This document shows, piece by piece, positions 1 to 63,300 of a stretch of 64,000 nucleotides of DNA. The translations under genes and the position numbers were made by a program. The stretch is taken from positions 14,639,574-14,703,573 of the forward strand of contig OZ025248.1 in the NCBI GenBank assembly GCA_964019135.1, in the 5' to 3' direction. How positions within the stretch are numbered: the stretch's first letter is position 1; each line of letters starts with the position of its first letter. Source of the DNA: Arenicola marina (Eukaryota > Annelida > Polychaeta > Arenicolidae). The notes under the pieces are model-generated. The model was not told the origin of the DNA, ran no database searches, and saw nothing but the letters and a program-made list of their open reading frames with translations.

Positions 1-3000
1 TCCAGGATGGTGCTGTCACTGCCGCCCTCCTCAACATCCACGCACAGGTTCACGCCCCGTCCGCCGCCGGGCCTGCCAAGGCAGAGAAGTTTAAACGCCC
101 GTGCATCTCAGCAGCCGGGATCAGCGAAGAGTGGGCCTACTTCATGACCCGGTGGAAGGAGTACCGTGAAGGTACCAAGCTGAGAGGTCCGGATATCGTA
201 TCCCAACTCCTCGAGTGCTGCAACGATCAGCTCCGCAAAGACCTGACCCGTGCCGCCGGGGGCACCCTCACAACCAAGTCCGAGAAGGACGTGTTAGCAG
301 CGATGGTGGCACTCGCCGTACGCCGCGAGAACATCATGGTCGCGCGCGTGACACTCCACAACATGTCCCAAGACCGCGATGAGCCCATCAGGGCATTTGG
401 CGCTCGGATCAAAGGGCAGGCTGGCACATGCAAATATGTGACGACGTGCACAGCTGATGGTTGCGGCGCCGAAGAAGACTTCACGGATGCAATATTGCGT
501 GACGTGCTAGCCCGCGGTATCGCCGACCAGGAGATCCAGCTGGATCTCCTTGGTGACCAAAATCAGGATATGTCACTTGAGGAGATGCTCTCGTTCATTG
601 AAGCTAAAGAGTCAGGGAAACGGTCGGCCTCCAGGCTGTTTGATGCACAGGGTGCCAATGCCATGCGCAGTGCCTACTACCGATCCAAGATGCAGGAGTT
701 GAGCGGGAAGCGGACGGACTCGAAGGGGGGCCAAACCGAGAAGCCGCCAGCCAGCTGCACGTACTGCGGGGGGCCGTGGCCACGGCAAGCGTGCACCGCC
801 TCATGTCAGAGCAAAGGAGTGCCCCGCTTATAACCATAGGTGCCGGTTGTGCAACAGGGACCACCACGTACATGGAAGGCCGTTGCCGTAGCAGAGACAA
901 CCCAAAACCCGACGCCCACGACCAAGAGGCTGCAGCCTTCAGTGAGTTATGCACGGTCAAAGCCATCCGTCGCCGCCAGGGTAGCCCCATTACCATGGAT
1001 CATCACCTGTACCACAACTTGCGTGACGTATGGTTGAAGCGACCATCCCCAGCCCAGCCCTACATTCGCCTGATTGTTGCAGCTCACAGGCAGGACTACA
1101 GAGACCTTGGCTTCGATCTCCTGACCCTCACGAAACCGGCGTCACTGCTATCGATGGCTGACACGGGTTGCCATAGCTGTCTCGTCGGGCTGCAGGTAAT
1201 CACCCAACTAGGTCTGCGGCGTGACGACCTGCTGCCCCTCACCATGCCCATGCACGCCGCCAACGAGAAGGGGAAAATATCCTTTGAACGCTCATCCTCC
1301 GCTTTTCCGGTAAGGGCAAGCCAGGCCACCTGCTTGAGACGCGGCAAATCGCCTACCTAACGGACAACTCCGACAAGCTCTTCCTCAGCCGTGAGGCCTG
1401 CAAACAGCTGGGGATGATCTCCGAATCGTTCCCTACCATCGGGGAAGTCCATCATGCCTGTGCTACCCGACGCGCCCTTGATGACTCAACGAGCACCACA
1501 AACCCTAATGTCACCCCCGCTTCGGTCCTACCACCAACACCGCACTGATCTCGACATGACAGACGGTGTGGTTCTTTACAAGGGCCGTGTCGTGATCCCC
1601 CCAGGCTTTCGTCAGGAAGTCTTGTCTGCACTCCACTCCGCCCACCAAGGCACCACCTCGATGATCGCACGCGCCGAAGCCTCCATCTTCTGGCCCGGGA
1701 TTTCTACAGCCATCCACCGGACCCGCTCCGACTGCGCCCACTGCAATCGCATGGCCCCATCCTAGCCCTGGTACATGCCTCTCTTACCACGCCCGTAAAC
1801 GGAGCAAGGGTGAGAGACATGCCTCTGACACGGCCGAAAACAAGAAATCGCGGACCGGTGGCTCAAGTTGAAGTTCATAACAGAATAAATATGCAGTGCC
1901 TACCCGTCAAGTTGCTCCATTAGGTTCCTGAAGCTTTTCATGACTTTCGGACAGTCATTTCTTTGGTCGGTAGTGTATTTTCTTGTAATCCGGGCGATTT
2001 GTGTCCTCTCTCGCTTCGTTTTGAATGCTCCGCCGCTCGCCGGAAGTAAACAAACTTAGCGTGAGCACTCGCTGCCAGGCGGCGTTTGTTGACGTCCGGC
2101 AAATGTAGGCACTGTAGGCACGGGTAGGCACTGCATATTTATTCTGTTTTGAACTTTAACTTGAGCCACCGGTCCGCCATTTCTTGTTTTCGGCCGTGTC
2201 AGCGGCATGGCTCTCATCCTTGCTCCGTTTACGGCCTGGTAAGAGAGGCATGTACCAGGGCTAGCCCCGTCCCAACCAAACTCACTCGCAGTACCCCGCA
2301 CCCCGCCAACATACCCGTTCCAATGCATTTGCGCTGATTACTTCAGCTACAAAGCGACAGTGTACCTTGTAATCGTGGACCGTTATTCCAACTGGCCCAT
2401 CGTTGAGAGGACAAAAGGCGGAGCCGATGGCCCAATTGACTGTTTGAGGAGGTGCTTCGCCACGTACGGCATCCCAGATGAACTCTCTTCAGACGGAGGC
2501 CCCGAGTTCACTGCTACGGCCACTCGCCTGTTCCTTCGCACATGGGGGTCAACCATCGCCTTTCATCCGTTGCATTCCCCCACAGCAACTGCCGGGCTGA
2601 GATTGGGGTCAAAACCGTCAAGCGCCTCTTCACCAACAACACCAATGCGGATGGCACCCTTGACACAGATACTACGCCGAGAGCCATCCTGCAGTACCGC
2701 AACACCCCCGATCCAGGCACCCAGACACTGTCACCTGCCATGTGAGTCTTTGGCCGCCCTATCAAAGAGTTCGTCCCCATACTGCCAGGCAGGTATGAAC
2801 GTCACGCGACGTGGAAGAAAACGCTGGTGGCCCGTGAAGAGGCGCTACGCAACAGGCATATGCGATGTGCTGAGCGGTGGTCCGAACATACAAGACAGCT
2901 GCCTCCCCTGTCGGTCGGTGACTTCGTCCGAGTCACCCCAACAAATGGGACAAAACCGGTCGAGAGGTCGAGGTCAAACAGTTCGACCAGTACGTCATCA

Positions 3001-3530
3001 GGATCGACGGCTCCGGGAGGGTGACACTTCGGAACAGGAAGTTCTTACGCAAGTACACCCCAGTGGCCCTTCCAGTTGCCCGCCACACAATCCTTGATGA
3101 CCTCACCCATCAAGCTCGACGTGACGCACTGACTCCGCCTCCGTCCTCTACCGTGCCAGACACAGGAGAGATGAAGGATCAGTATGAGGCCACACCTCGG
3201 TCCCCACTGCCACCCTCCCCCACAACTGCAGCTACACCTCCCACCCAATGTGCTCCGCCGAATACTACGGTCTCCCCCGTGCCTGAGCCCCTTGCGATCA
3301 GCCCAACACGTCCTCCACGAGAAACTGAGACTCGCCATCCACGACTCCCGATCCCGAGACGCATCCTGGCCACAGAGGACCCAATGCCTCCTGGCACCGA
3401 GGGGCACCCCCCCCCCCCACCTCCCGCAGTGGCCGCACTCTCAAACGCCCACTCTGGCACTCATCAAATGTGAATCGTGGGATGATGAGCTGGTGATAAA
3501 GACCAGGCTCCAACTGTGGGCCATGTACTA
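1..3530 (+). mobile_element. Broken Ty3/Gypsy-type LTR retroelement fossil (gag to integrase)
   Basis: A degraded retroelement that enters from the left edge of the window. Recognisable parts in order are: a gag-like region at about 1-830, ending in a cysteine-rich zinc-knuckle-like stretch; an aspartyl-protease-like region with an ADTG-type motif near 1150; an integrase zinc-binding region (HHCC type) near 1620-1760; and an integrase core near 2360-2560, with the VDRYSNWP and SSDGGPEF motifs typical of Gypsy integrases. A proline-rich tail follows at 2830-3470. I did not recognise a reverse transcriptase part. The element is clearly broken, by several lesions plus a nested inverted-repeat insertion. 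A G-rich purine tract near 3635-3660 could mark the start of a 3' LTR, but the 5' LTR lies outside the window, so no LTR pair can be tested. It is old enough to have collected a secondary insertion. Confidence 0.75.
1762..2264. mobile_element. 503-bp MITE with ~145-bp inverted repeats, nested in the Gypsy fossil
   Basis: The two ends are inverted copies of each other. The left arm (1762-1908) and the right arm (2122-2264) match at roughly nine bases in ten, starting from the shared terminus CTAGCCCTGGTACATGCC. The middle, about 210 bp, is unique and has no coding potential I recognise. A likely 7-bp target duplication flanks it (ccccatc at 1755-1761, ccccgtc at 2265-2271, one mismatch). It lies inside the integrase region of the retroelement, so it inserted later. 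The superfamily is not assigned. Short open frames inside it are by-products of the palindrome. Confidence 0.75.
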
Positions 3531-5190: not shown

Positions 5191-8100
5191 GTGCAGTGCA
5201 GTTGTGTACGTCATATAGTGCCCCACAGTGCCTCCCCTGTACTGGTTGTGTACGGCATATAGTACCCCACAGTGCCTCCCCTGCACTGGCTGTGTACGGC
5301 ATATAGTACCCCACAGTGCCTCCCCTGCACTGGTTGTGTACGGCATATAGTACCCCACAGTGCCTCCCCTGCACTGGTTGTGTACGTCATATAGTACCCC
5401 ACAGTGCCTCCCCTGCACTGGTTGTGTACGGCATATAGTACCCCATAGTGCCTCCCCTGCACTGGTTGTGTACGGCATATAGTACCCCACAGTGCCTCCC
5501 CTGCACTGGTTGTGTACGTTATATAGTACCCCACAGTGCCTCCCCTGCACTTGTTGTGTACGTCATATAGTACCCCACAGTGCCTCCCCTGCACTGGTTG
5601 TGTACGGTATATAGTACCCCACAGTGCCTCCCCTGCACTGGTTGTGTACGTCATATAGTACCCCACACTGCCTCCCCTGCACTGGTTGTGTACGACATAT
5701 AGAACCCCACAGTGCTTCCCCTGCACTGGTTGTGTACGTCATATAGTACCCCACAGTGCCTCCCCTGCACTGGTTGTGTACGTCATATAGTACCCCACAG
5801 TGCCTCCCCGGCACTGGTTGTGTACGGCATATAGTACCCCACAGTGCCTCCCCTGCACTGGCTGTGTACGGCATATAGTACCCCACAGTGCCTCCCCTGC
5901 ACTGGTTGTGTACGGCATATAGTACCCCACAGTGCCTCCCCTGCACTGGTTGTGTACGTCATATAGTACCCCACAGTGCCTCCCCTGCACTGGTTGTGTA
6001 CGGCATATAGTACCCCACAGTGCCTCCCCTGCACTGGTTGTGTACGGCATATAGTACCCCACAGTGCCTCCCCTGCACTGGTTGTGTACGGCATATAGTA
6101 CCCCACAGTGCCTCCCCTGCACTGGTTGTGTACGTTATATAGTACCCCACAGTGCCCCCCCGTGCACTGGTTGTGTGCGTCATATAGTACCCCACAGTGC
6201 CTCCCCTGCACTGGCTGTGTACGGCATATAGTACCCCACAGTGCCTCCCCTGCACTGGTTGTGTACGTCATATAGTACCCCACAGTGCCTCCCCTGCACT
6301 GGTTGTGTACGTCATATAGTACCCCACAGTGCCTCCCCTGCACTGGTTGTGTACGGCATATAGTACCCCACAGTGCCTCCCCTGCACTGGTTGTGTACGT
6401 CATATAGTACCCCACAGTGCCTCCCCTGCACTGGTTGTGTACGTCATATAGTACCCCACAGTGCCCCCCCGTGCACTGGTTGTGTGCGTCATATAGTACC
6501 CCACAGTGCCTCCCCTGCACTGGCTGTGTACGGCATATAGTACCCCACAGTGCCTCCCCTGCACTGGTTGTGTACGTCATATAGTACCCCACAGTGCCTC
6601 CCCTGCACTGGTTGTGTACGTCATATAGTACCCCACAGTGCCTCCCCTGCACTGGTTGTGTACGTCATATAGTACCCCACAGTGCCTCCCCTGCACTGGT
6701 TGTGTACGTCATATAGTACCCCACAGTGCCTCCCCTGCACTGGTTGTGTACGGCATATAGTACCCCACAGTGCCTCCCCTGCATTGGCTGTGTACGTCAT
6801 ATAGTACCCCACAGTGCCTCCCCTGCACTGGTTGTGTACGTCATATAGTACCCCACAGTGCCTCCCCTGCACTGGTTGTGTGCGTCATATAGTACCCCAC
6901 AGTGCCTCCCCTGCACTGGTTGTGTACGGCATATAGTACCCCACAGTGCCTCCCCTGCACTGGTTGTGTACGGCATATAGTAGCCCACACTGCCTCCCCT
7001 GCACTGGTTGTGCACGTCATATAGTACCCCACAGTGCCTCCCCTGCACTGGTTGTGTGCGTCATATAGTACCCCACAGTGCCTCCCCTGCACTGGCTGTG
7101 TACGGCATATAGTACCCCACAGTGCCTCCCCTGCACTGGTTGTGTACGTCATATAGTACCCCACAGTGCCTCCCCTGCACTGGTTGTGTACGTCATATAG
7201 TACCCCACAGTGCCTCCCCTGCACTGGTTGTGTACGTTATATAGTACCCCACAGTGCCTCCCCTGCACTGGTTGTGTACGTTATATAGTACCCCACAGTG
7301 CCTCCCCTGCACTGGTTGTGTGCGTCATATAGTACCCCACAGTGCCTCCCCTGCACTGGCTGTGTACGTCATATAGTACCCCACAGTGCCTCCCCTGCAC
7401 TGGTTGTGTACGTCATATGGTACCCCACACTGCCTCCCCTGCACTGGTTGTGTACGTTATATAGTACCCCACAGTGCCTCCCCTGCACTGGTTGTGTGCG
7501 TCATATAGTACCCCACAGTGCCTCCCCTGCACTGGCTGTGTACGGCATATAGTACCCCACAGTGCCTCCCCTGCACTGGTTGTGTACGTCATATAGTACC
7601 CCCACAGTGCCTCCCCTGCACTGGTTGTGTACGTCATATAGTACCCCACAGTGCCTCCCCTGCACTGGTTGTGTACATCATATAGTACCCCACAGTGCCT
7701 CCCCTGCACTGGTTGTGTACGTCATATAGTACCCCACAGTGCCTCCCCTGCACTGGTTGTGTACGGCGTATAGTACCCCATAGTGCCTCCCCTGCACTGG
7801 TTGTGTACGGCATATACCCCACAGTGCCTCCCCTGCACTGGTTGTGTACGGCATATAGTACCCCACAGTGCCTCCCCTGCACTGGTTGTGTACGGCATAT
7901 AGTACTCCACAGTGCCTCCCCTGCACTGGTTGTGTACGTTATATAGTACCCCACAGTGCCTCCCCTGCACTGGTTGCGTACGGCATATAGTACCCCATAG
8001 TGCCTCCCCTGCACTGGTTGTGTACGGCATATACCCCACAGTGCCTCCCCTGCACTGGTTGTGTACGGCATATAGTACCCCACAGTGCCTCCCCGGCACT

Positions 8101-10567
8101 GGTTGTGTACGGCATATAGTACCCCACAGTGCCTCCCCTGCACTGGTTGTGTACGTTATAAAGTACCCCACAGTGCCTCCCCTGCACTGGTTGTGTGCGT
8201 CATATAGTACCCCACAGTGCCTCCCCTGCACTGGTTGTGTACGGCATATAGTACCCCACAGTGCCTCCCCGGCACTGGTTGTGTACGGCATATAGTACCC
8301 CACAGTGCCTCCCCTGCACTGGTTGTGTACGTTATAAAGTACCCCACAGTGCCTCCCCTGCACTGGTTGTGTACGGCATATAGTACCCCACAGTGCCTCC
8401 CCTGCACTGGTTGTGTACGGCATATTGTACCCCACAGTGCCTCCCCTGTACTGGTTGTGTACGTCATATAGTACCCCACAGTGCCTCCCCTGCACTGGTT
8501 GTGTACGGCATATAGTACCCCACAGTGCCTCCCCTGCACTGGTTGTGTACGGCATATAGTACCCCACAGTGCCTCCCCTGCACTGGTTGTGTACGGCATA
8601 TAGTACCCCACAGTGCCTCCCCTGCACTGGTTGTGTACGGCATATAGTACCCCACAGTGCCTCCCCTGCACTGGTTGTGTACGGCATATAGTACCCCACA
8701 GTGCCTCCCCGGCACTGGTTGTGTACGGCATATAGTACCCCACAGTGCCTCCCCTGTACTGTTTGTGTACGTCATATAGTACCCCACAGTGCCTCCCCTG
8801 CACTGTTTGTGTACGTCATATAGTACCCCACAGTGCCTCCCCTGCACTGGTTGTGTACGGCATATAGTACCCCACAGTGCCTCCCCGGCACTGGTTGTGT
8901 ACGGCATATAGTACCCCACAGTGCCTCCCCTGTACTGTTTGTGTACGTCATATAGTACCCCACAGTGCCTCCCCTGCACTGGTTGTGTACGTCATATAGT
9001 ACCCCACAGTGCCTCCCCTGTACTGGTTGTGTACGGCATATAGTACCCCACAGTGCCTCCCCTGCACTGGTTGTGTACGGCATATAGTACCCCACAGTGC
9101 CTCCCCTGCACTGGTTGTGTACGGCATATAGTACCCCACAGTGCCTCCCCTGCACTGGTTGTGTACGTCATATAGTACCCCACACTGCCTCCCCTGCACT
9201 GGTTGTGTACGGCATATAGTACCCCACACTGCCTCCCCTGCACTGGTTGTGTACGGCATATAGTACCCCACAGTGCCTCCCCTGCATTGGTTGTGTACGG
9301 CATATAGTACCCCACAGTGCCTCCCCTGCACTGGTTGTGTACGGCATATAGTACCCCACAGTGCCTCCCCTGCACTGGTTGTGTACGGCATATAGTACCC
9401 CATAGTGCCTCCCCTGCACTGGTTGTGTACGGCATATACCCCACAGTGCCTCCCCTGCACTGGTTGTGTACGGCATATAGTACCCCATAGTGCCTCCCCT
9501 GCACTGGTTGTGTACGTTATATAGTACCCCACACTGCCTCCCCTGCACTGGTTGTGTACGGCATATAGTACCCCACAGTGCCTCCCCTGCACTGGTTGTG
9601 TACGGCATATAGTACCCCATAGTGCCTCCCCTGCACTGGTTGTGTACGGCATATACCCCACAGTGCCTCCCCTGCACTGGTTGTGTACGGCATATAGTAC
9701 CCCACAGTGCCTCCCCTGCACTGGTTGTGTACGTCATATAGTACCCCACAGTGCCTCCCCGGCACTGGTTGTGTACGGCATATAGTACCCCACAGTGCCT
9801 CCCCGGCACTGGTTGTGTACGTCATATAGTACCCCACAGTGCCTCCCCTGCACTGGTTGTGTACGTCATATAGTACCCCACAGTGCCTCCCCGGCACTGG
9901 TTGTGTACGGCATATAGTACCCCACAGTGCCTCCCCTGCACTGGTTGTGTACGTCATATAGTACCCCACAGTGCCTCCCCTGCACTGGTTGTGTACGTCA
10001 TATAGTACCCCACAGTGCCTCCCCTGCACTGGTTGTGTACGGCATATAGTACCCCACAGTGCCTCCCCTGCACTGGTTGTGTACGTCATATAGTACCCCA
10101 CAGTGCCTCCCCTGCACTGGTTGTGTACGGCATATAGTACCCCACACTGCCTCCCCTGCACTGGTTGTGTACGGCATATAGTACCCCACAGTGCCTCCCC
10201 TGCACTGGTTGTGTACGGCATATAGTACCCCACAGTGCCTCCCCTGCACTGGTTGTGTACGGCATATAGTACCCCACACTGCCTCCCCTGCACTGGTTGT
10301 GTACGGCATATAGTACCCCACAGTGCCTCCCCTGCACTGGTTGTGTACGTCATATAGTACCCCACACTGCCTCCCCTGCACTGGTTGTGTACGGCATATA
10401 GTACCCCACAGTGCCTCCCCTGCACTGGTGTACGGCATATAGTACCCCACACTGCCTCCCCTGCACTGGTTGTGTACGGCATATAGTACCCCACAGTGCC
10501 TCCCCTGCACTGGTTGTGTACGTCATATAGTACCCCACAGTGCCTCCCCTGCACTGGCTGTGTACGG
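5191..10567. repeat. Large 44-bp minisatellite array (~120 copies)
   Basis: About 5.4 kb is a head-to-tail array of a 44-bp unit with core ATATAGTACCCCACAGTGCC followed by TCCCCTGCACTGG. Units vary at a few positions (GTCAT, GGCAT or GTTAT before ATAGTA; CACAG or CACTG), and some units are a few bases short. Because 44 is not divisible by 3 and the unit lacks stops in most frames, three units make a 44-residue super-repeat that stays open on both strands; these frames are not genes. The last unit runs directly into GTGAGAAAC (10567-10575), which looks like a splice donor. The array lies about 0.85 kb upstream of the PFOR exon acceptor. Confidence 0.97.
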
Positions 10568-11511: not shown

Positions 11512-13611
11512 ATGTGGCGAGCGTGGGCGACCGGACGCTCGGTCCTGCAGACCGTGATGCGGGCGTCCAACGTGAGCAAGCGAGGCTTGGCCGAGACGAC
11601 CACGCCTCGACCTCAGATGGCGGCCGCCGTGGCCCAGATGAAGGGAAGCCCCGAGCTGACCCCCTCCGAGAACCAGCGCTGGGCGGTGATGGACGGGAAC
11701 GAGGCCGCGGCCTACGTGGCCTACTCCATGAGTGACATCTCCTTCATCTACCCGATCAGCCCGGCCACCTCCATGGGCGAACACATGGACCGCTGGGCCG
11801 CCAACGGCGAGAAGAACATCCTTGGACAGATCGTTGACGTCAACATGATGCAGTCGGAAGCCGGAACCGCCGGGGCGCTGCACGGCGCATGCGCAGCTGG
11901 GGCGTTGACGAGTACCTTCACGGCGTCCCAGGGCCTGTTGCTGATGATCCCCAACATGTACCTGCTGGCGGGCGAGCTCATGCCCACAGTGTTCCACGTG
12001 TCGGCGAGAACCGTCTCCAAGCACGCCCTTTCCATCTTCAACGACCACTCGGACGTCATGGCGACGCGCCAGACGGGCTTCGCCATGCTGTGCTCCTCCT
12101 CCGTGCAGGAGGTGATGGACCTGGGCGTCGCCTCCCACATCGCCGCCCTCAAGAGCCGACTGCCCTTCCTCCACTTCTTCGACGGCTACCGAACCTCGGC
12201 CGAGATGTCCAAGATCCGGGTCCTGCCCCGAGAAGACATGGCCAAGATCTTCCCGTTCGAGACGGTGAAGGAGCACCTGCACAAGTACGCCCTGAACCCC
12301 TACCACCCGATCATCCGCGGCACGGGGCAGAGGCCCGACATCTTCTTCCAGTCGTCCGTGGCCGCCAACAAGTACTACCAAGCCTGCCCCGAGATCGTGG
12401 AGGAGAGGATGCAGGACCTGGAGAAGGTGACTGGTCGGAAGTACGGGCTGTTCACGTACCGCGGGTCCCCCACGGCCGAGCGGGTCGCCGTCTGCATGGG
12501 TTCGGCCGCCAAGACAATGGAGGAGACCGTCGACTACATGAACAAGCAAGGAGAGAACGTGGGCGTCCTCAACGTGCACCTGTTCCGGCCCTGGTCAACC
12601 AAGCATTTCCTGGACGTGTTGCCGCCCACAGTGGCGAAGATGGCGGTACTGGACCGGACCCGGGAGGACGGTGCCATCGGTATGCCGCTCTTCCTCGACG
12701 TCAACGTGACGATGGCGGACGCGAGCCGACAGCCGCTCATCACCGGCGCCCAGTACGGCCTGGCCTCCAAGGAGTTCACGCCCGCGATGGGCAAGGCCGT
12801 CTTCGACAACCTCAACGCCAAGGAGCCCAGGAAGCGATTCGTCATCGGCATCGAGGATGACGTCACGCATTCGTCGCTGGACTACGGCGACCCGCTGCCG
12901 ACGATGCCGCCCAATTCCCGACAGTGCCTCTTTTGGGGTTTGGGTTCGGACGGCACGGTGGGCGCCAACAAGACGGCCATCAAGACCATCGGACTGGAGA
13001 CTGACCTGAAGGCCCAGGGACACTTCGTCTTCGACTCGCACAAGGAAGACGGCGTGACGGTGTCCCACTTGAGGTTCGGACCCGAGGAGATCAAGTCCGA
13101 GTACACGATCCAGAGCGATGCCGACTACCTGTCATGCAGCCACCCCTCCTACGTGTACAAGTACGAGATGCTGGAGCCGCTGAAGGATGGCGGCATCTTC
13201 GTCCTCAACTCGCCCTGGAACACGGTGGAGGAGATGAACAAGAAGCTCCCCGCCCACGTCAAGCAGTCCATCATGACGAAGAAGCTGCAGTTCTACAACA
13301 TCGACGCCACCAACATCGCCAAGGAGGTGGGTCTGGGCAAGCGCGTCAACATGATCATGCAGGCCGCCTTCTACTGCCTGAGCGGCGTGCTGCCCGAGGA
13401 GCAGGCTCTGGCCCTGGTCAAGACCTCCATCACCAAGCAGTACGAGCACAAGGGCCCCAAAGTGATCGCCATGAACCACAAGGCCGTGGACGTCACCCGC
13501 GACCGCCTCACCAAGATGGAGTACCCGGAGAGCTGGCAGACCACCACCGAGGGCGGACACAAGCCGGGCTTCAACGAAGGCGACAAGCCAGACTTCGTGG
13601 AGCACATCATC
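11512..13611 (+). CDS. PFOR: Pyruvate:ferredoxin oxidoreductase-like protein, N-terminal 700 residues, mitochondrial-type leader
   Basis: PFOR oxidatively decarboxylates pyruvate to acetyl-CoA and passes electrons to ferredoxin or, in fused forms, NADP+. The N-terminal ~30 residues (MWRAWATGRSVLQ...) are rich in Arg, Ser and Ala and free of acidic residues until E28, like a mitochondrial presequence. Domain I starts at about residue 50 (VMDGNEAAAYVAY, FIYPISPATSMGEHMD, MMQSEAGTAGALHG, TFTASQGLLLMIPNMY, HFFDGYRTSAE). Domain II follows (YRGSPTAERVAVCMGSAA, VLDRTREDGAIG), then domain III (FWGLGSDGTVGANKTAIKTI, SHLRFGPEEI, LNSPWNTVEEMN, GKRVNMIMQAAFYCLSGV). Family members are about 1,200 residues; the two-cluster ferredoxin domain and TPP domain are missing. 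After residue 700 the open frame continues about 600 codons into the 23-bp array. No intron interrupts the 2.1-kb exon, and the bases are GC-rich. A 3' splice site at 11415 precedes the start. I chose the ATG at 11512 because it heads the leader. The gene is either 3'-truncated or its later exons lie outside the window. Confidence 0.85.
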
Positions 13612-16600
13612 CATACAGCCCCATACCTCACCTCCCTACAGCCCCATACCTCACCTCCCTACAGCTCCATACCTGACCTCGCTACAGCTCCATACCTCAC
13701 CTCCCTACAGCTCCATACCTCGATCACATCGCTACAGCTCCATACGTCACCTCCCTACAGCTCCACACCATACCTCCCTACAGCCCCATACCTCACCTCC
13801 CTACAGCTCCATACCTCACCTCCCTACAGTTCCATACCTCACCTGGCTACAGCTCCATACCATACCGCGCTACAGCCCCATACCTCACCTCACTACAGCT
13901 CCATACCTCACCTCGCTACAGCTCTATACCCCACCTCCCTACAGCTCCATACATCACCTCCCTACAGCTCCATACCTCACCTCGCTACAGCCCCATACCT
14001 CACCTCCCTACAGCTCCATACCTCACCTCCCTACAGCCCCATACCTCACCTCCCTACAGCTCCATACCTCACCTCCCTACAGCTCCATACCTCACCTCGC
14101 TACAGCTCCATACATCACCTCCCTACAGCTCCATACCTCACCTCCCTACAGCTCCATATCTTACCTCCCTACAACCCCATACCTCACCTCGCTACAGCTC
14201 TATACCTCACCTCGCTACAGCTCTATACCTCACCTCGCTACAGCTCCATACCCCACCTCGCTACAGCTCCATACCTCACCTCCCTACAGCTCCATACCTC
14301 ACCTCCCTACAGCTCCATACCTCACCTCGCTACAGCTCCATACATCACCTCCCTACAGCTCCATACCTCACCTCCCTACAGCTCCATATCTTACCTCCCT
14401 ACAACCCCATACCTCACCTCACTACAGCTCCATACCTCACCTCGCTACAGCTCTATACCTCACCTCGCTACAGCTCCGTACCTTACCCCCCTACAGCTCC
14501 ATACCCCACCTCCCTACAGCTCCATACATCACCTCCCTACAGCTCCATACCTCACCTCGCTACAGCTCCATACCTCACCTCCCTACAGCTCCATACCACA
14601 CCTCCCTACAGCTCCATACCTCACCTCCCTACAGCTCCATACCTTACCTCGCTACAGCTCCATACCTCACCTCCCTACAGCTCCATACCTCACCTCCCTA
14701 CAGCTCCATACCCCACCTCCCTACAGCTCTATACCTCACCTCCCTACAGCTCCATACCACACCTCCCTACAGCTCCATTCCTCACCTCCCTACAGCTCCA
14801 TACCTCACCTCGCTACAGCTCTATACCTCACCTCGCTACAGCTACATACCCCACCTCCCTACAGCTCCATACCTCACCTCCCTACAGCCCCATACCACAC
14901 CTCCCTACAGCTCCATACCTCACCTCCCTACAGCTCCATACCTCACCTCCCTACAGCCCCATACCTCACCTCGCTACAGCCCCATACCTCACCTCCCTAC
15001 AGCCCCACACCTCACATCCCTACAGCTCCATACCTCACCTCCCTACAGCTCCATACCTCACCTCCCTACAGCTCCATACCCCACCTCGCTACAGCCCCAT
15101 ACCTCACCTCCCTACAGCTCCATACCTCACCTCCCTACAGTTCCATACCTCACCTGGCTACAGCCCCATACCTCACCTCCCTACAGCTCCATACCTCACC
15201 TCCCTACAGCTCCATACCTCCCCTCCCTACAGCTCCATATGTCACCTCCCTACAGCCCCATACCTCACCTCCCTACAGCTCCATACCTCACCTCGCTACA
15301 GCCCCATACCTCACCTCCCTACAGCTCCATACCTCACCTCCCTACAGCTCCATACCTCACCTCGCTACAGCCCCATACCTCACCTCCCTACAGCCCCATA
15401 CCTCACCTCCATAGAGCCCCATACCTCACCTCCCTACAGCTCCATACCTCACCTCGCTACAGCCCCATACCTCACCTCCCTACAGCCCCATACCTCACCT
15501 CCCTACAGCTCCATACCTCACCTCGCTACAGCCCCATACCTCACCTCCCTACAGCCCCATACCTCACCTCCATAGAGCCCCATACCTCACCTCCCTACAG
15601 CTCCATACCTCACCCCCCTACAGCTCCATACCTCACCTCCCTACAGCCCCATACCTCACCTCCCTACAGCTCCATACCTCACCTCCCTACAGCTCCATAC
15701 CTCACCTCCCTACAGCTCCATACCTCACCTCGCTACAGCCCCATACCTCACCTCCCTACAGCCCCATACCTCACCTCCATAGAGCCCCATACCTCACCTC
15801 CCTACAGCTCCATACCTCACCTCGCTACAGCCCCATACCTCACCTCCCTACAGCCCCATACCTCACCTCCCTACAGCCCCATACCTCACCTCGCTACAGC
15901 CCCATACCTCACCTCCCTACAGCTCCATACCCCACCTCCCTACAGCTCCATACCTCACCTCCCTACAGCTCCATACCTCACGTCCCTACAGCTCCATACC
16001 CCACCTCCCTACAGCTCCATACCTCACCTCCCTACAGCTCCATACCTCACGTCCCTACAGCTCCATACCCCACCTCGCTACAGCCCCATACCTCACCTCC
16101 CTACAGCCCCATACCTCACCTCCCTACAGCCCCATACCTCACCTCGCTACAGCCCCATACCTCACCTCCCTACAGCTCCATACCCCACCTCCCTACAGCT
16201 CCATACCTCACCTCCCTACAGCTCCATACCTCACGTCCCTACAGCTCCATACCTCACCTCGCTACAGCCCCATACCTCACCTCCCTACAGCTCCATACCT
16301 TACCTCCCTACAGCTCCATACCTCACCTCCCTACAGCTCCATACCTCACCTCCCTACAGCTCCATACCTCACCTCCCTACAGCCCCATACCTCACCTCCC
16401 TACAGCCCCATACCTCACCTCCCTACAGCTCCATACCTCACCTCCCAACAGCCCCATACCTCACCTCGCTACAGCTCCATACCTCACCTCCCTACAGCTC
16501 CATACCTCACCTCGCTACAGCTCCATACCTCACCTCCCTACAGCTCCATACCTCACCTCCCTACAGCTCCATACCTCACGTCCCTACAGCTCCATACCCC

Positions 16601-19600
16601 ACCTCCCTACAGCTCCATACATCACCTCCCTACAGCTCCATACCTCACGTCCCTACAGCTCCATACCCCACCTCCCTACAGCTCCATACATCACCTCCCT
16701 ACAGCTCCATACATCACCTCCCTACAGCCCCAAACCTCACCTCCCTACAGCCCCATACCTCACCTCGCTACAGCCCCATACCCCACCTCCCTACAGCTCC
16801 ATACCCCACCTCCCTACAGCCCCATACCTCACCTCCCTACAGCTCCATACCACACCTCCCTACAGCTCCATACCTCACCTCGCTACAGCCCCATACCTCA
16901 CCTCCCTACAGCTCCATACCTCACCTCCCTACAGCCCCATACGTCACCTCCCTACAGCCCCATACGTCACCTCCCTACAGCCCCATACCACACCTCCCTA
17001 CAGCCCCATACCTCACCTCGCTACAGCTCCATACCTCACCTCGCTACAGCTCTATACCTCACCTCGCTACAGCTCCGTACCTTACCCCCCTACAGCTCCA
17101 TACCCCACCTCCCTACAGCTCCATACATCACCTCCCTACAGCTCCATACCTCACCTCCCTACAGCTCCATACCTCACCTCGCTACAGCTCTATACCTCAC
17201 CTCGCTACAGCTCCATACCTTACCCCCCTACAGCTCCATACCCCACCTCGCTACAGCTCCATACCTCACCTCCCTACAGCCCCATACCTCACCTCCCTAC
17301 AGCTCCATACCTCACCTCCCTACAGCCCCATACCTCACCTCGCTACAGCTCCATACCATACCTCGCTACAGCCCCATACCTCCCCTCCCTACAGCTCCAT
17401 ACGTCACCTCCCTACAGCCCCATACCTCACCTCCCTACAGCTCCATACCCCACCTCGCTACAGCTCCATACCATACCTCGCAAAACCCTTATACCCCCCT
17501 CCCTACAGCCCCATAACTCACCTCCCTACAGCTCCATACCCCACCTCCCTACAGCCCCATACCTCACCTCCCTACAGCCCCATACCTCACCTCGCTACAG
17601 CCCCATACCTCACCTCGCTACAGCCCCATACCTCACCTCCCTACAGCTCCATACCACACCTCCCTACAGCTCCATACCTCACCTCGCTACAGCTCCATAC
17701 CTCACCTCCCTACAGCCCCATACCTCACCTCCCTACAGCTCCATACCTCACCTCCCTACAGCCCCATACGTCACCTCCCTACAGCCCCATACGTCACCTC
17801 CCTACAGCCCCATACCACACCTCCCTACAGCCCCATACCTCACCTCGCTACAGCTCCATACCTCACCTCGCTACAGCTCTATACCTCACCTCGCTACAGC
17901 TCCGTACCTTACCCCCCTACAGCCCCATACCTCACCTCCCTACAGCTCCATACCTCACCTCCCTACAGCCCCATACCTCACCTCGCTACAGCTCCATACC
18001 ATACCTCGCTACAGCTCCATACCTCACCTCCCTACAGCTCCATACGTCACCTCCCTACAGCCCCATACCTCACCTCCCTACAGCTCCATACCCCACCTCG
18101 CTACAGCTCCATACCATACCTCGCAAAACCCTTATACCCCCCTCCCTACAGCCCCATAACTCACCTCCCTACAGCTCCATACCCCACCTACCTACAGCCC
18201 CATACCCCACCTCCCTACAGCCCCATACCTCACCTCCCTACAGCTCCATACCTCACCTCCCTACAGCCCCATACCTCACCCCCTACAGCCCCATACCTCA
18301 CCTCCCTACAGCCCTATACCTCACCTCCCTACAGCCCCATATCTCACCTCCCTGCAGCCCCATACCTCACCTCCCTACAGCCCCATAACTCACCTCCCTA
18401 CAGCTCAATACCTCACCTCCCTACAGCTCCATACCTCACCTGGCTACAGCTCCATACCCCACCTCCCTACAGCTCCATACATCACCTCCCTACAGCTCCA
18501 TACCTCACCTCCCTACAGCTCCATACCTCACCTCGCTACAGCTCTATACCTCACCTCGCTACAGCTCCATACCTTACCCCCCTACAGCTCCATACCCCAC
18601 CTCGCTACAGCTCCATACCTCACCTCCCTACAGCCCCATACCTCACCTCCCTACAGCTCCATACCTCACCTCCCTACAGCCCCATACCTCACCTCGCTAC
18701 AGCTCCATACCATACCTCGCTACAGCCCCATACCTCCCCTCCCTACAGCTCCATACCCCACCTCGCTACAGCTCCATACCTCACCTCCCTACAGCCCCAT
18801 ACCTCACCTCCCTACAGCTCCATACCTCACCTCCCTACAGCCCCATACCTCACCTCGCTACAGCTCCATACCATACCTCGCTACAGCTCCATACCTCACC
18901 TCCCTACAGCTCCATACGTCACCTCCCTACAGCCCCATACCTCACCTCCCTACAGCTCCATACCCCACCTCGCTACAGCTCCATACCATACCTCGCAAAA
19001 CCCTTATACCCCCCTCCCTACAGCCCCATAACTCACCTCCCTACAGCTCCATACCCCACCTACCTACAGCCCCATACCCCACCTCCCTACAGCCCCATAC
19101 CTCACCTCCCTACAGCTCCATACCTCACCTCCCTACAGCCCCATACCTCACCCCCTACAGCCCCATACCTCACCTCCCTACAGCCCTATACCTCACCTCC
19201 CTACAGCCCCATATCTCACCTCCCTGCAGCCCCATACCTCACCTCCCTACAGCCCCATAACTCACCTCCCTACAGCTCAATACCTGACCTCCCTACAGCC
19301 CCATACCTCACCTGGCTACAGCTCCATACCTCACCTCCCTACAGCTCCATACCACACCTCCCTACGGCTCCATACCTAACCTCCCTACAGCTCCATACCT
19401 CACCTCCCTACAGCCCCATACCTCACCTCGCTACAGCTCCATACCTCACCTCGCTACAGCTCCATACCTCACCTCGCTACAGCCCCATACCTCACCTCGC
19501 TACAGCTCCATACCTCACCTCCCTACAGCCCCATACCTCACCTCCCTACAGCCCCATACCTCACCTCCCTACAGCCCCATACCTCACCTCCCTACAGCTC

Positions 19601-20275
19601 CATACCTCACCTCCCTACAGCCCCATACCTCACCTCCCTACAGCCCCATACCTCACCTCCCTACAGCCCCATACCTCACCTCCCTACAGCTCCATACCTC
19701 ACCTCCCTACAGCCCCATACCTCCCCTCCCTACAGCCCCATACGTCACCTCCCTACAGCTCCATACCTCACCTCGCTACAGCTCCATACCTCACCTCGCT
19801 ACAACCCCATACCTCACCTCGCTACAGCTCCATACCTCACCTCCCTACAGCTCCATACCCCACCTCCCTACAGCTCCATACCTCACCTCGCTACAGCTCC
19901 ATACCACACCTCCCTACAGCTACATACCTCACCTCCCTACAGCTCCATACCTCACCTCCCTACAGCCCCATACCTCACCTCCCTACAGCTCCATACCTCA
20001 CCTCCCTACAGCTCCATACCTTACCTCCCTACAGCTCCATACCTCACCTCGCTACAGCTACATACCTCACCTCGCTACAGCTACATACCCCACCTCCCTA
20101 CAGCTCCATACCTCACCTCCCTACAGCCCCACACCTCACCTCGCTACAGCTCCATACCTCACCTCCCTAGAGCCCCATACCTCACCTCCCTACAGCTGCA
20201 TACCTCACCTCCCTACAGTTCCATACCTCACCTCCCTACAGTTCCATACCCCCCTCCCTACAGCCCCATATCATA
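13612..20275. repeat. 6.7-kb array of a 23-bp minisatellite (~290 copies) abutting the PFOR exon
   Basis: The array starts within a codon or two of the last recognisable PFOR residue and continues to about 20.275 kb. The unit core is CCTCACCTCCCTACAG, followed by CTCCATA or CCCCATA; the main variants are CTCGCTACAG, ACGTCCCTACAG, CACACC and CCATACC. Nearly every unit is a pyrimidine tract ending in ACAG and so resembles a 3' splice site. The unit has almost no GT. Three units give a 23-residue super-repeat (...SLQLHTSPPYSSIPHL...), which explains the long open frames; they are not evidence of a gene. A rare variant (TCGCAAAACCCTTATACC) recurs at 17478, 18121 and 18993, showing larger internal duplications. 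Confidence 0.97.
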
Positions 20276-59504: not shown

Positions 59505-60336
59505 ATCGGGTTGCTGGACCGTCAGAAGCCCAGATTGCTGGACCATCAGTAGGCCAGGTTGCTGGACCTTCAGTAGCCCAGGGTGCTGGACTCTCAGTAG
59601 CCCAGGTTGCTGGACCCGTAGTAGCCCACGTTGCTGGACCCATAGTAGCCCAGGTTGCTGGACCGTCAGTAGCCCAGGTTGCTAGACCATCAGTAGCCCA
59701 GGTTGCTGGACCCTCAGTAGCCCAGGTTGCTGGACTCTCAGTAGCCCAGGTTGCTGGACCCGTAGTAGCCCACGTTGCTGGACCCATAGTAGCCCAGGTT
59801 GCTGGACCGTCAGTAGCCCAGGTTGCTAGACCATCAGTAGCCCAGGTTGCTGGACCCTCAGTAGCCCAGGTTGCTTGACCCTCAGTAGCTCAGGTTGCTT
59901 GACCATCAGTAGCCCAGGTTGCTGGACCCTCAGTAGCCCAGGATGCTTGACCATCAGTAGCCCAGGTTGCTGGACCCTCAGTAGCCCAGGTTGCTGGACC
60001 CTCAGTAGCCCAGGTTGCTTGACCATCAGTAGCCCAGGTTGCTGGACCCTCAGTAGCCCAGGTTGCTGGACCCTCAGTAGCCCAGGTTGCTGGACCCTCA
60101 GTAGCCCAGGTTGTTGGACCATCAGTAGCCCAGGTTGCTGGACCCTCAGTAGCCCAGGTTGCTTGACCATCAGTAGCCCAGGTTGCTGGACCCTCAGTAG
60201 CCCAGGTTGCTTGACCATCAGTAGCCCAGGTTGTTGGACCCTCAGTAGCCCAGGTTGCTGGACCATCAGTAGCCCAGGTTGCTGGACCCTCAGTAGCCCA
60301 GGTTGCTGGACCCTCAGTAGCCCAGGTTGCTGGTCC
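59505..60336. repeat. 24-bp minisatellite built from the MAGI stop-codon region, ~35 copies
   Basis: On the minus strand the unit reads ACCAGCAACCTGGGCTACTG then AGGG (24 bp), which is exactly the end of the MAGI coding region (TSNLGY-stop) repeated. The array begins inside the last MAGI codons and continues as the 3' UTR. In the MAGI frame every unit carries a TGA. The other two frames stay open, which explains the long spurious frames on both strands. Confidence 0.95.
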
Positions 60337-63300
60337 GGCCCGAGGGGTGCTCGCCATACTGCCCGCTGTAGTGGCTGTAGTAGGCGTTGCGTGGCTCGGA
60401 GTTCCGCATGTCCGGACCGGGTAGGGAGGGTGAACTTTGACCCATGGGGTGGGAGGGTGACCCCTGCCCCATGGGGCGGGAGGGGCCGTTGGGCATCATG
60501 GGGTTGGGCAGGGGGTTGCTGTGGGCGATGGGCGACCTCACCACGTGACCCGGGCCGTGGACGCCGCCACCTACAACAAACCACAGTCGTCTTGTGAAGA
60601 CTGGCGCACGAATTACACCAATATATAGATATATATATATATATTTATAGATATATATATATATAAACATTCATAGATATATATTTTATACATATCCCCT
60701 ACACTGTACCTACAATGTGTTTCTTATAAGCTTATCTTTCACATACAATATATTAGAATTCAGCAAATAAAAGCGTTTTTAGAAAATGTACACTGTTTAT
60801 TGTTATCTAATATAGAACGTAAAAAAATCTTCTCATACTGTTTCTATTCAATAAAACGATTGGCACTGAACACCAGATGAAATGATGACACCAGGTAAAA
60901 CCAAAATAATCAAAATAACCTCGAGACGCGTGCGGAGAGTTAGTGTTGACGGGACTCACCAGGTGGCGGCACCAGCTTGGCGGCGCGTTTGACGAGCAGT
61001 TTGACGCGGGAGCCGCCGCTGGAGATTAGGCTGATGGCCTCGGCGTGCGTCATGTTGTTGGTGCTGTAGTTGTTGATCTCAATCAGCTGGTCGCCCACCT
61101 GAAGCAGCGCCACCACACTCAGTTAACACTGTACACTGTACGCATCGGGCAGAAAGCTGGGATTTCCCGCTGATGGTTTGTGGGAAGGGGGGTATTTATG
61201 TGACGTGGTCTTATCATGTAATTATTTTAAATAATCCAGTCTATAAAAACAATTGTTCTCAATAATCAAAGAACAGACAAAATATCGTCGTTATACAATA
61301 TCATTATAAATTCAGCATACCTCACCTCCACCCACATTCAGTCTCCCATCCAGATCAGCCGCTCCCCCCACCCCTCCTCCACCACCCAGACCCACCTTCA
61401 GTCTCCCATCCAGATCAGCCGCTCCCCGCACCCCTCCTCCACCACCCAGACCCACCTTCAGTCTCCCATCCAGATCAGCCGCTCCCCCCACCCCTCCTCC
61501 TCGACCCACAGACCCACCTTCAGTCTCCCATCCAGATCAGCCGCTCCCCCCACCCCTCCTCCTCGACCCACAGACCCACCTTCAGTCTCCCATCCAGCTC
61601 AGCCGCTCCCCCCACCCCTCCTCCACCCACAGACCCACCTTCAGTCAGCCATCCAGATCAGCCGCTCCCCCCACCACCCACAGACCCACCTTTAGTCTCC
61701 CATCCAAATCAGCCGCTCCCCCCACCCCTCCTCCTCGACCCACAGACCCACCTTCAGTCTCCCATCCAGCTCAGCCGCTCCCCCCACCCCTCCTCCACCC
61801 ACAGACCCACCTTCAGTCAGCCATCCAGATCAGCCGCTCCCCCCACCACCCACAGACCCACCTTTAGTCTCCCATCCAGATCAGCCGCTCCCCCCCCACC
61901 ACCCACGGACCCACCTTCAGTCTCCCATCCAAATCAGCCGCTCCCCCCACCCCTCCTCCCCGACCTACCTTCAGTCTCCCATCCAGATCTGCCGCTCCCC
62001 CCCACCCCTCCTCCTCGACCCACAGACCCACCTTTAGTCTCCCATCCATATCAGCCGCTCCCCCCACCCCTCCTCCCAGACCCACAGACCCACCTTCAGT
62101 CTCCCATCCAGATCAGCCGCTCCCCCCACCCCTCCTCCACCACCCACAGACCCACCTTCAGTCTCCCATCCAGATCAGCCGCTCCCCCCACCACTCCTCC
62201 TCGACCCACCTTCAGTCTCCCATCCAGATCAGCCGCTCCCCCAACCCCTCCTCCTCGACCCACAGACCCACCTTCAGTCTCCCATCCAGATCAGCAGCTC
62301 CCCCACTCCTCCTCCATCCACAGACCCACCTTCAGTCAGCCATCCAGATCAGCCGCTCCCCCCACCACCCACCGACCCACCTTCAGTCTCCCATCCAGAT
62401 CAGCCGCTCCCCCCACCCCTCCTTCCCGACCCACCTTCAGTCTCCCATCCAGATCTGCCGCTCCCCCCCACCCCTCCTCCTCGACCCAGACCCACCTTCA
62501 GTCTTCCATCCAGATCAGCCGCTCCTCCCTCCGCTATCCGCAACACGTACAGCGGCATATTGTCGAACTCTTTCCCTCCGCGGATGGAGAAACCGAAGCC
62601 CCGCGAGCCGCGGTGCAACTCGGCTTCGTAATACTTGTCTTCTTCCGCTTCCATATTCGGCTGCAGAAATACAAATAACCTTTCAGTAAGCTGATCCCAG
62701 GCAAAATGTCAACAAAAATGCAAGGCAACAATATAACTTGGAATGCTATCTATAAATGGGGTTGATGCATGCTGAGGAACACATTGCTGAATAAGGACTT
62801 ACCCAGCCAGGCACTGAGCGCTACATGGGGACAACAGTTACACAGAAATGTTCTAGTAAGGAGAAACTCACGGCACTATGACGTACAATGTGAGATTAAA
62901 ATCGTGCGTTCTGTGCTGGCCAAGCATGGGACAGGACTAGAAGTCGTACCATAATGAATTCATTTTAAATCTATTTGAAACGACGATGATGCATAAACGC
63001 ATTCGGCATTCAATTTGAAAACCAGGCAAGATGGGTTAATAACATATCCACAGGAAACTAACTACCAGCAAAAGGCAACGTAACCATGCACATTCGGATT
63101 AGCTGGGACCAGGTCATGGGAATAAACCCCGTGAAGAACGACTGAATTCAACTCTCGTGTTAAGTCAAGCCCATGTCACAACCAACTCAATAACGCCAAC
63201 TCATTCCACGACGCACCTGCGACGTCATGTTTCTCTGTCGCTGCATTTCGCGGTGTTTGTCTAATACTGGCTGGTGTCGATTGCCCTGGGGCCCTGGGCC

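Follow-up and report, generated by a model that had tools for sequence, protein, structure and literature searches.

A minisatellite that repeats an exon end and its 5′ splice site in a MAGI gene of the annelid Arenicola marina

When the end of an exon and its 5′ splice site (donor) are tandemly repeated, which copy ends the exon, and how does such an arrangement come about? An earlier note, made from the letters of the sequence, had described this state for a PDZ exon of a MAGI gene in Arenicola marina, and had proposed that use of an inner donor would add Gly-rich linkers and repeated PDZ pieces to the protein, in frame where the added length is a multiple of three. We analysed the array in the window (the whole 64-kb stretch of DNA, on the 77 Mb contig C1) and looked for similar arrays in the assembly (867 Mb, 762 contigs).

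The array and its gene

The surrounding MAGI gene structure proved to be as described, with the last PDZ domain split over two exons. Tandem Repeats Finder (TRF) reports the array between the two PDZ halves on the minus strand with a period of 62 and 20.7 copies, and we count 21 donors, a number that leaves out three shifted pattern matches lacking GT; this confirms that the exon end and donor are repeated some 20 times. The main features, in window coordinates and with a slash marking exon ends in motifs, are as follows.

62496–62660, minus strand: MAGI exon encoding the first half of the last PDZ domain (24.4 bits to Pfam PDZ, positions 4–44 of the profile); acceptor CTGCAG, donor AAG/GTGGGT
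61330–62529, minus strand: donor-spanning minisatellite, about 62-bp unit, 20.7 copies (TRF and unit listing); 34 nt exonic, remainder intronic
62494–62495, minus strand: GT of the first (exon-proximal) donor, by reading frame the sole donor giving an intact PDZ domain
61334–62434, minus strand: 20 inner donor copies, GT in all
62400–62402, minus strand: first in-frame stop past donor 1 (reading-frame analysis)
61099–61329, minus strand: intron remainder, 231 bp, up to acceptor CTTCAG (sequence reading and TRF)
60960–61098, minus strand: MAGI exon encoding the second half of this last PDZ domain (30.4 bits to Pfam PDZ, positions 46–80 of the profile)
60314–60570, minus strand: last MAGI exon, ending RTSNLGY and the stop codon (exon limits by eye)

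The first G of each donor GT lies, on the minus strand, at:
Donors 1–7: 62495, 62434, 62380, 62329, 62271, 62209, 62155
Donors 8–14: 62093, 62031, 61968, 61914, 61861, 61810, 61751
Donors 15–21: 61689, 61638, 61579, 61517, 61455, 61395, 61335

The earlier span of 61322–62500 located a real array, but missed the exonic start of the first unit, which TRF places 34 nt 5′ of the exon end. AADLDGRLK followed by AAG/GTGGGT likewise stands as the core of the unit, which in each copy comprises the final 30–34 nt or so of the PDZ exon and its 5′ splice site. Nineteen of the 21 donors read exactly AAG/GTGGGT, one AAG/GTAGGT and one AAT/GTGGGT, with GT kept in all 21. The exonic 30 nt are free of indels in every copy, and length variation is confined to the G-rich intronic part, which spans 21–33 nt from one donor to the following exonic 30 nt. 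We count the motif AAGGTGGGT 19 times in the window; shuffling predicts 1.1, and none of 100 shuffles reached 19. By a scoring matrix for donors, the inner copies nearly equal the first in strength, which bears out the description of some 21 equivalent donors; the site itself thus gives no reason for the first to win. TRF found no further array in the 231 bp between the array and the acceptor, and the exon has one match in the assembly, with no second haplotype copy.

Joined at donor 1, the two PDZ halves reach 104.6 bits with a single PDZ domain from MAGI2 (1wfv) and 99.8 bits with one from MAGI1 (2r4h). The highest ranks go to DLG4 constructs that carry two or three PDZ domains; in the three printed alignments, all of them to DLG4, individual stretches reach 45–56 bits and the junction (DGRLK/VGDQ) is ungapped. 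Splicing at the first donor is thus predicted, from sequence, to yield a normal PDZ domain.

Nor is this junction the only one in such a state. If the PDZ exons on one strand in the same run are taken as one MAGI gene, a reconstructed gene model, the gene has at least four arrays at exon 3′ ends, one of them built on the stop codon. Besides the array described above, these are:

C1:14722729–14722133, minus strand: 46-bp unit, 13 copies, at the 3′ end of an earlier MAGI PDZ exon
C1:14705750–14705126, minus strand: 37-bp unit, 16.5 copies, at the 3′ end of another MAGI PDZ exon (survey locus L016)
59509–60333 of the window, minus strand: 24-bp minisatellite, 34.4 copies (TRF), at the MAGI stop; it starts 17 coding nt 5′ of the TGA and repeats the coding end and stop

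As the 24-bp period is divisible by 3, losing the first MAGI stop would lengthen the protein by only 8 residues, up to the following stop.

The window holds other features of interest. A pyruvate:ferredoxin oxidoreductase (POR_N, PFOR_II and POR domains) is encoded in this animal genome at 11512–13617 on the plus strand; by eye, its N-terminus could be a mitochondrial signal. Its recognisable coding end leads directly into a 23-bp array of 290 copies (13610–20270), and no donor was seen at that end. A 44-bp minisatellite of 122 copies (5201–10567) has no link to any identified exon, and pieces of an LTR-type retroelement, with integrase zinc-binding and core domains, lie at 3–3094 on the plus strand. 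Elsewhere in the assembly, the mitochondrial contig (C762) carries on one strand, as read by eye, cox1, cox2, atp8, cox3, nad6, cob, atp6, nad5, nad4L, nad4, (rRNAs), nad1, nad3 and nad2, which is the annelid order. Four matches above the cut-off were obtained for PF16915, the annelid haemoglobin linker family. Both results mark the host as an annelid and speak against a lancelet, which the resemblance of the array to repeats known from lancelets (see below) had first suggested.

Arrays at exon ends in the sampled families

We surveyed 50 exons from two families, using the ends of profile matches as a proxy for exon ends: the best 30 of 77 PDZ matches, and 20 of 133 kinesin matches, namely the first 20 listed that are chromosomal and stop-free. 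These are high-scoring matches and a non-random sample, some of them from one gene. An array was counted as donor-crossing if its start falls within the final 60 bp of the match and it continues downstream. Arrays cross the donor side in 10 of the 50 exons, comprising eight of 30 PDZ loci (L011, L016, L017, L020, L025, L026, L027 and L032) and two of 20 kinesin loci (L076 and L081); none of the 50 has an array across the acceptor side. L025 is included though only about 5 nt of exon fall inside its array, and L015 (2.2 copies, score 54) is sub-threshold and was left out. An apparent acceptor-crossing array at L073 was rejected: the profile match had extended into the intron, and the array stops 10 nt short of where the likely acceptor ends.

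The surveyed units each consist of an exon end and a GT donor and differ from locus to locus. Across 12 donor arrays GT is kept in 167 of 176 inner copies, and by the same matrix the strength of the inner donors is close to that of the first in 10 of the 12 and lower in L025 and L027.

How strong is the excess at exon 3′ ends? Among the PDZ loci, eight array 5′ boundaries fall in the last 60 bp of the 30 matches (1.8 kb; 4.4 per kb), compared with nine in the 41.4 kb (30 × 1380 bp) at +121 to +1500 (0.22 per kb). The final 60 bp of the matches thus hold array starts at roughly 20 times the density seen past +120 (Poisson p about 1e-8). A further five lie at 0 to +120 past the match, a density high enough that the hot zone is wider than the exon end alone. 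Under a stricter null, in which each array was re-placed randomly within its locus and allowed to enter the match by at most 60 bp, a mean of 2.3 arrays fell at the 3′ ends and eight or more in one of 5000 trials; since random placement already expects about 2.3, the excess is 3.5-fold rather than 20-fold. The same null gave a mean of 2.3 at PDZ exon 5′ ends, and no array in 298 of 5000 trials, which is not significant, so the acceptor-side lack is by itself merely suggestive.

Kinase exons proved useless for the border test. None of 20 chromosomal kinase loci has an array over either end, but these matches are mostly long and single-frame, and their ends need not be exon ends. We excluded the remaining 10 of 30 kinase loci, which sit on small contigs, contain TAA/TAG in frame and look ciliate-like. 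Eight contigs (C330, C443, C465, C497, C504, C609, C652 and C684) carry kinase matches with in-frame TAA/TAG and without TGA, and are likely, to judge by this codon usage, to be ciliate DNA in the assembly. Contig C3 carries, at about 14–57 Mb, numerous kinase-like matches (among the best 120 of 1190 candidates scored) in open frames some 300 codons long, which look like a large family expansion. At C5:5402476–5437356, five kinase matches with identical scores lie about 8.54 kb apart, with a similar minisatellite 3′ of each.

What the repeated donors may do

We favour passive tandem amplification seeded at the donor, in which the exon-proximal donor is used and the inner copies are decoys, and put its probability at about 0.78. 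That the first donor is the one used is suggested by the protein and its reading frame.

The alternative that survives best, though improbable, is that the copies aid splicing and are kept for that reason, many U1 sites and G-runs strengthening exon recognition or guarding the intron from early polyadenylation. It fits the intact donor copies, the G-rich intronic part and the donor-side polarity of the surveyed sample. The changes among the 20 inner copies fit as well, with 18 in the 600 exonic nt compared with 1 in the 120 nt of the donor hexamer, these being raw counts with changes shared between copies. However, homogenisation of the arrays could produce equal retention, the RNA of the first units folds unremarkably (z −0.59), and exceptions exist: L025 has GT in only three of eight inner copies, and the inner donors of L027 are mostly weaker than the first.

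Slightly less probable again is a splicing switch, with decoy donors purposely used at times so that the resulting transcripts contain a stop and are destroyed, which would tune the level of MAGI. Reading through donor 1 does reach a stop within about 95 nt, and donors are mostly intact across the 12 arrays. Against this, array homogenisation alone would predict high donor retention, and similar arrays stand at other exons, built of other units.

The proposal of the earlier note, that inner donors are used and diversify the protein by adding Gly-rich linkers and pieces of PDZ to MAGI, is very unlikely. All 20 inner donors have an intact GT and match the first in strength, yet not one gives a stop-free, frame-keeping insert, because donor 2 (+61 nt) shifts the frame and donors 3 onwards lie behind the in-frame stop at 62402–62400. 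TGA moreover stands in the exonic frame of three of the 20 inner copies, and an insert would land within the PDZ domain. In the exonic part, the inner copies differ by 6 changes at the first codon position, none at the second and 12 at the third; 11 codon changes are synonymous and seven are of other kinds. Past coding constraint would likewise be consistent with an unchanged second position, but array turnover shares variants among copies, leaving too few independent changes to argue from.

In eight other arrays we detected 83 inner donors, of which seven keep the frame and avoid a stop (three of eight in L026, three of 16 in L032 and one of three in L081); this count excludes L020 and L025, where a later copy had been taken as the first donor. 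TRF periods are divisible by three in only two of 12 donor arrays (75 and 69), hence there is no sign of selection for frame. The array of L032 (sense 1641–2874) has a 69-bp unit, equal to 23 codons, and contains the three inner donors just mentioned; on its sequence it is the best candidate for translated copies.

That an assembly artefact produced the MAGI array is hardly credible, given that its units vary by substitutions and indels in patchwork fashion, that about 1.2 kb is short, and that the pattern is seen again at other exons.

Known repeats at exon borders and a possible origin

The closest known systems are the ‘mirages’ of lancelets, minisatellites across exon–intron borders in Adh3, troponin C, the globins BflGb6 and BflGb9, and PGBD5, which are reported, in the portions of these papers available, to leave regular splicing undisturbed (PMC3087553, PMC3902484). 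Their units measure 10–72 bp in Adh3 and 150–160 bp in the globins, and they affect both borders, lying on the acceptor side in BflGb6 (PMC3087553, available portion). The MAGI array resembles them in crossing an exon end (at 62496), in its unit of 62 bp, which is inside the size range given there, and in keeping the AG/GT signal in many units. It is a mirage-type minisatellite and, by itself, simply another member of that kind. The lancelet cases, as described in those portions, concern single genes and both borders, whereas here the animal is an annelid, several genes are affected, and arrays are on the donor side only in the 50 sampled exons. As far as our literature search shows, the novelty relative to lancelets thus lies in phylum, frequency and one-sidedness. 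The titles and abstract openings found in the open-licence PMC literature describe no donor-spanning arrays in annelids, a weak absence.

Three further comparisons rest on parts of the respective sources. Human internal tandem repeats at exon–intron boundaries in segmental duplications, linked to intron formation (PMC2812944), are also tandem repeats at exon borders, but concern recent paralogues and repeats retained in or spliced from the transcript; here the exon is unduplicated and the donor array long. Earthworm metallothionein likewise offers intronic minisatellites in an annelid (PMC12783039), but those arrays lie inside intron 1, with no copying of splice sites stated in the part available, whereas the MAGI array copies the donor. 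The Rogers model of intron gain through tandem duplication of AG/GT segments (cited in PMC3087553) shares tandem duplication over such a site; under it, donor and acceptor would both lie in copies of the unit, while 231 bp without a TRF array separate the MAGI array from its acceptor. The array probably enlarged an existing intron rather than creating one.

Passive, donor-seeded amplification could have proceeded as follows. A short tandem duplication would have captured the final 34 nt or so of the exon and the initial 20–30 nt or so of the intron, and would then have expanded into the intron via unequal exchange or slippage, as the near-likeness of the units suggests. The upstream original would remain attached to the exon, and the exon-proximal donor would still make normal MAGI mRNA. 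Inner copies would be removed with the intron and be at most decoys, whose use would lead to frameshift or early stops. The same process would have hit the donor side of many exons in this annelid and, in the sample, spared the acceptor side.

Two routes could lead to this polarity. One is tolerance: a duplicated donor would leave a good outer donor in place, while a duplicated acceptor would put the wrong one first. The other is that donors are mutational hotspots. Array starts are denser at exon ends than further downstream, where tolerance should be at least equal, which favours a contribution from the hotspot. We think that such duplications are tolerated near donors, as the outermost donor survives, and are also preferentially born there. 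A bolder proposal, which we offer tentatively and think rather more likely to be wrong than right, is that 5′ splice sites are true birth hotspots of minisatellites in this annelid. A process tied to transcription or splicing, triggered for example by exposure of ssDNA at the exon–intron step, would time and again duplicate the exon end with its donor; a sizeable share of introns would start with a ladder of U1 sites, and splicing would reliably pick the outermost donor from among 4 to some 45 that are almost equal.

The MAGI and survey arrays suggest that ‘mirages’ extend beyond lancelets, and gene annotation in such genomes may err where a predictor selects an inner donor. Their one-sided placement offers a direct test of a mutational hotspot at donors against a selection sieve. 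Were the hotspot reading true, these introns would constitute a natural experiment on donor choice, and if 4 to some 45 near-equal donors are handled by splicing in many genes, the rule of 5′-splice-site choice could be read from the natural cDNA of one animal.
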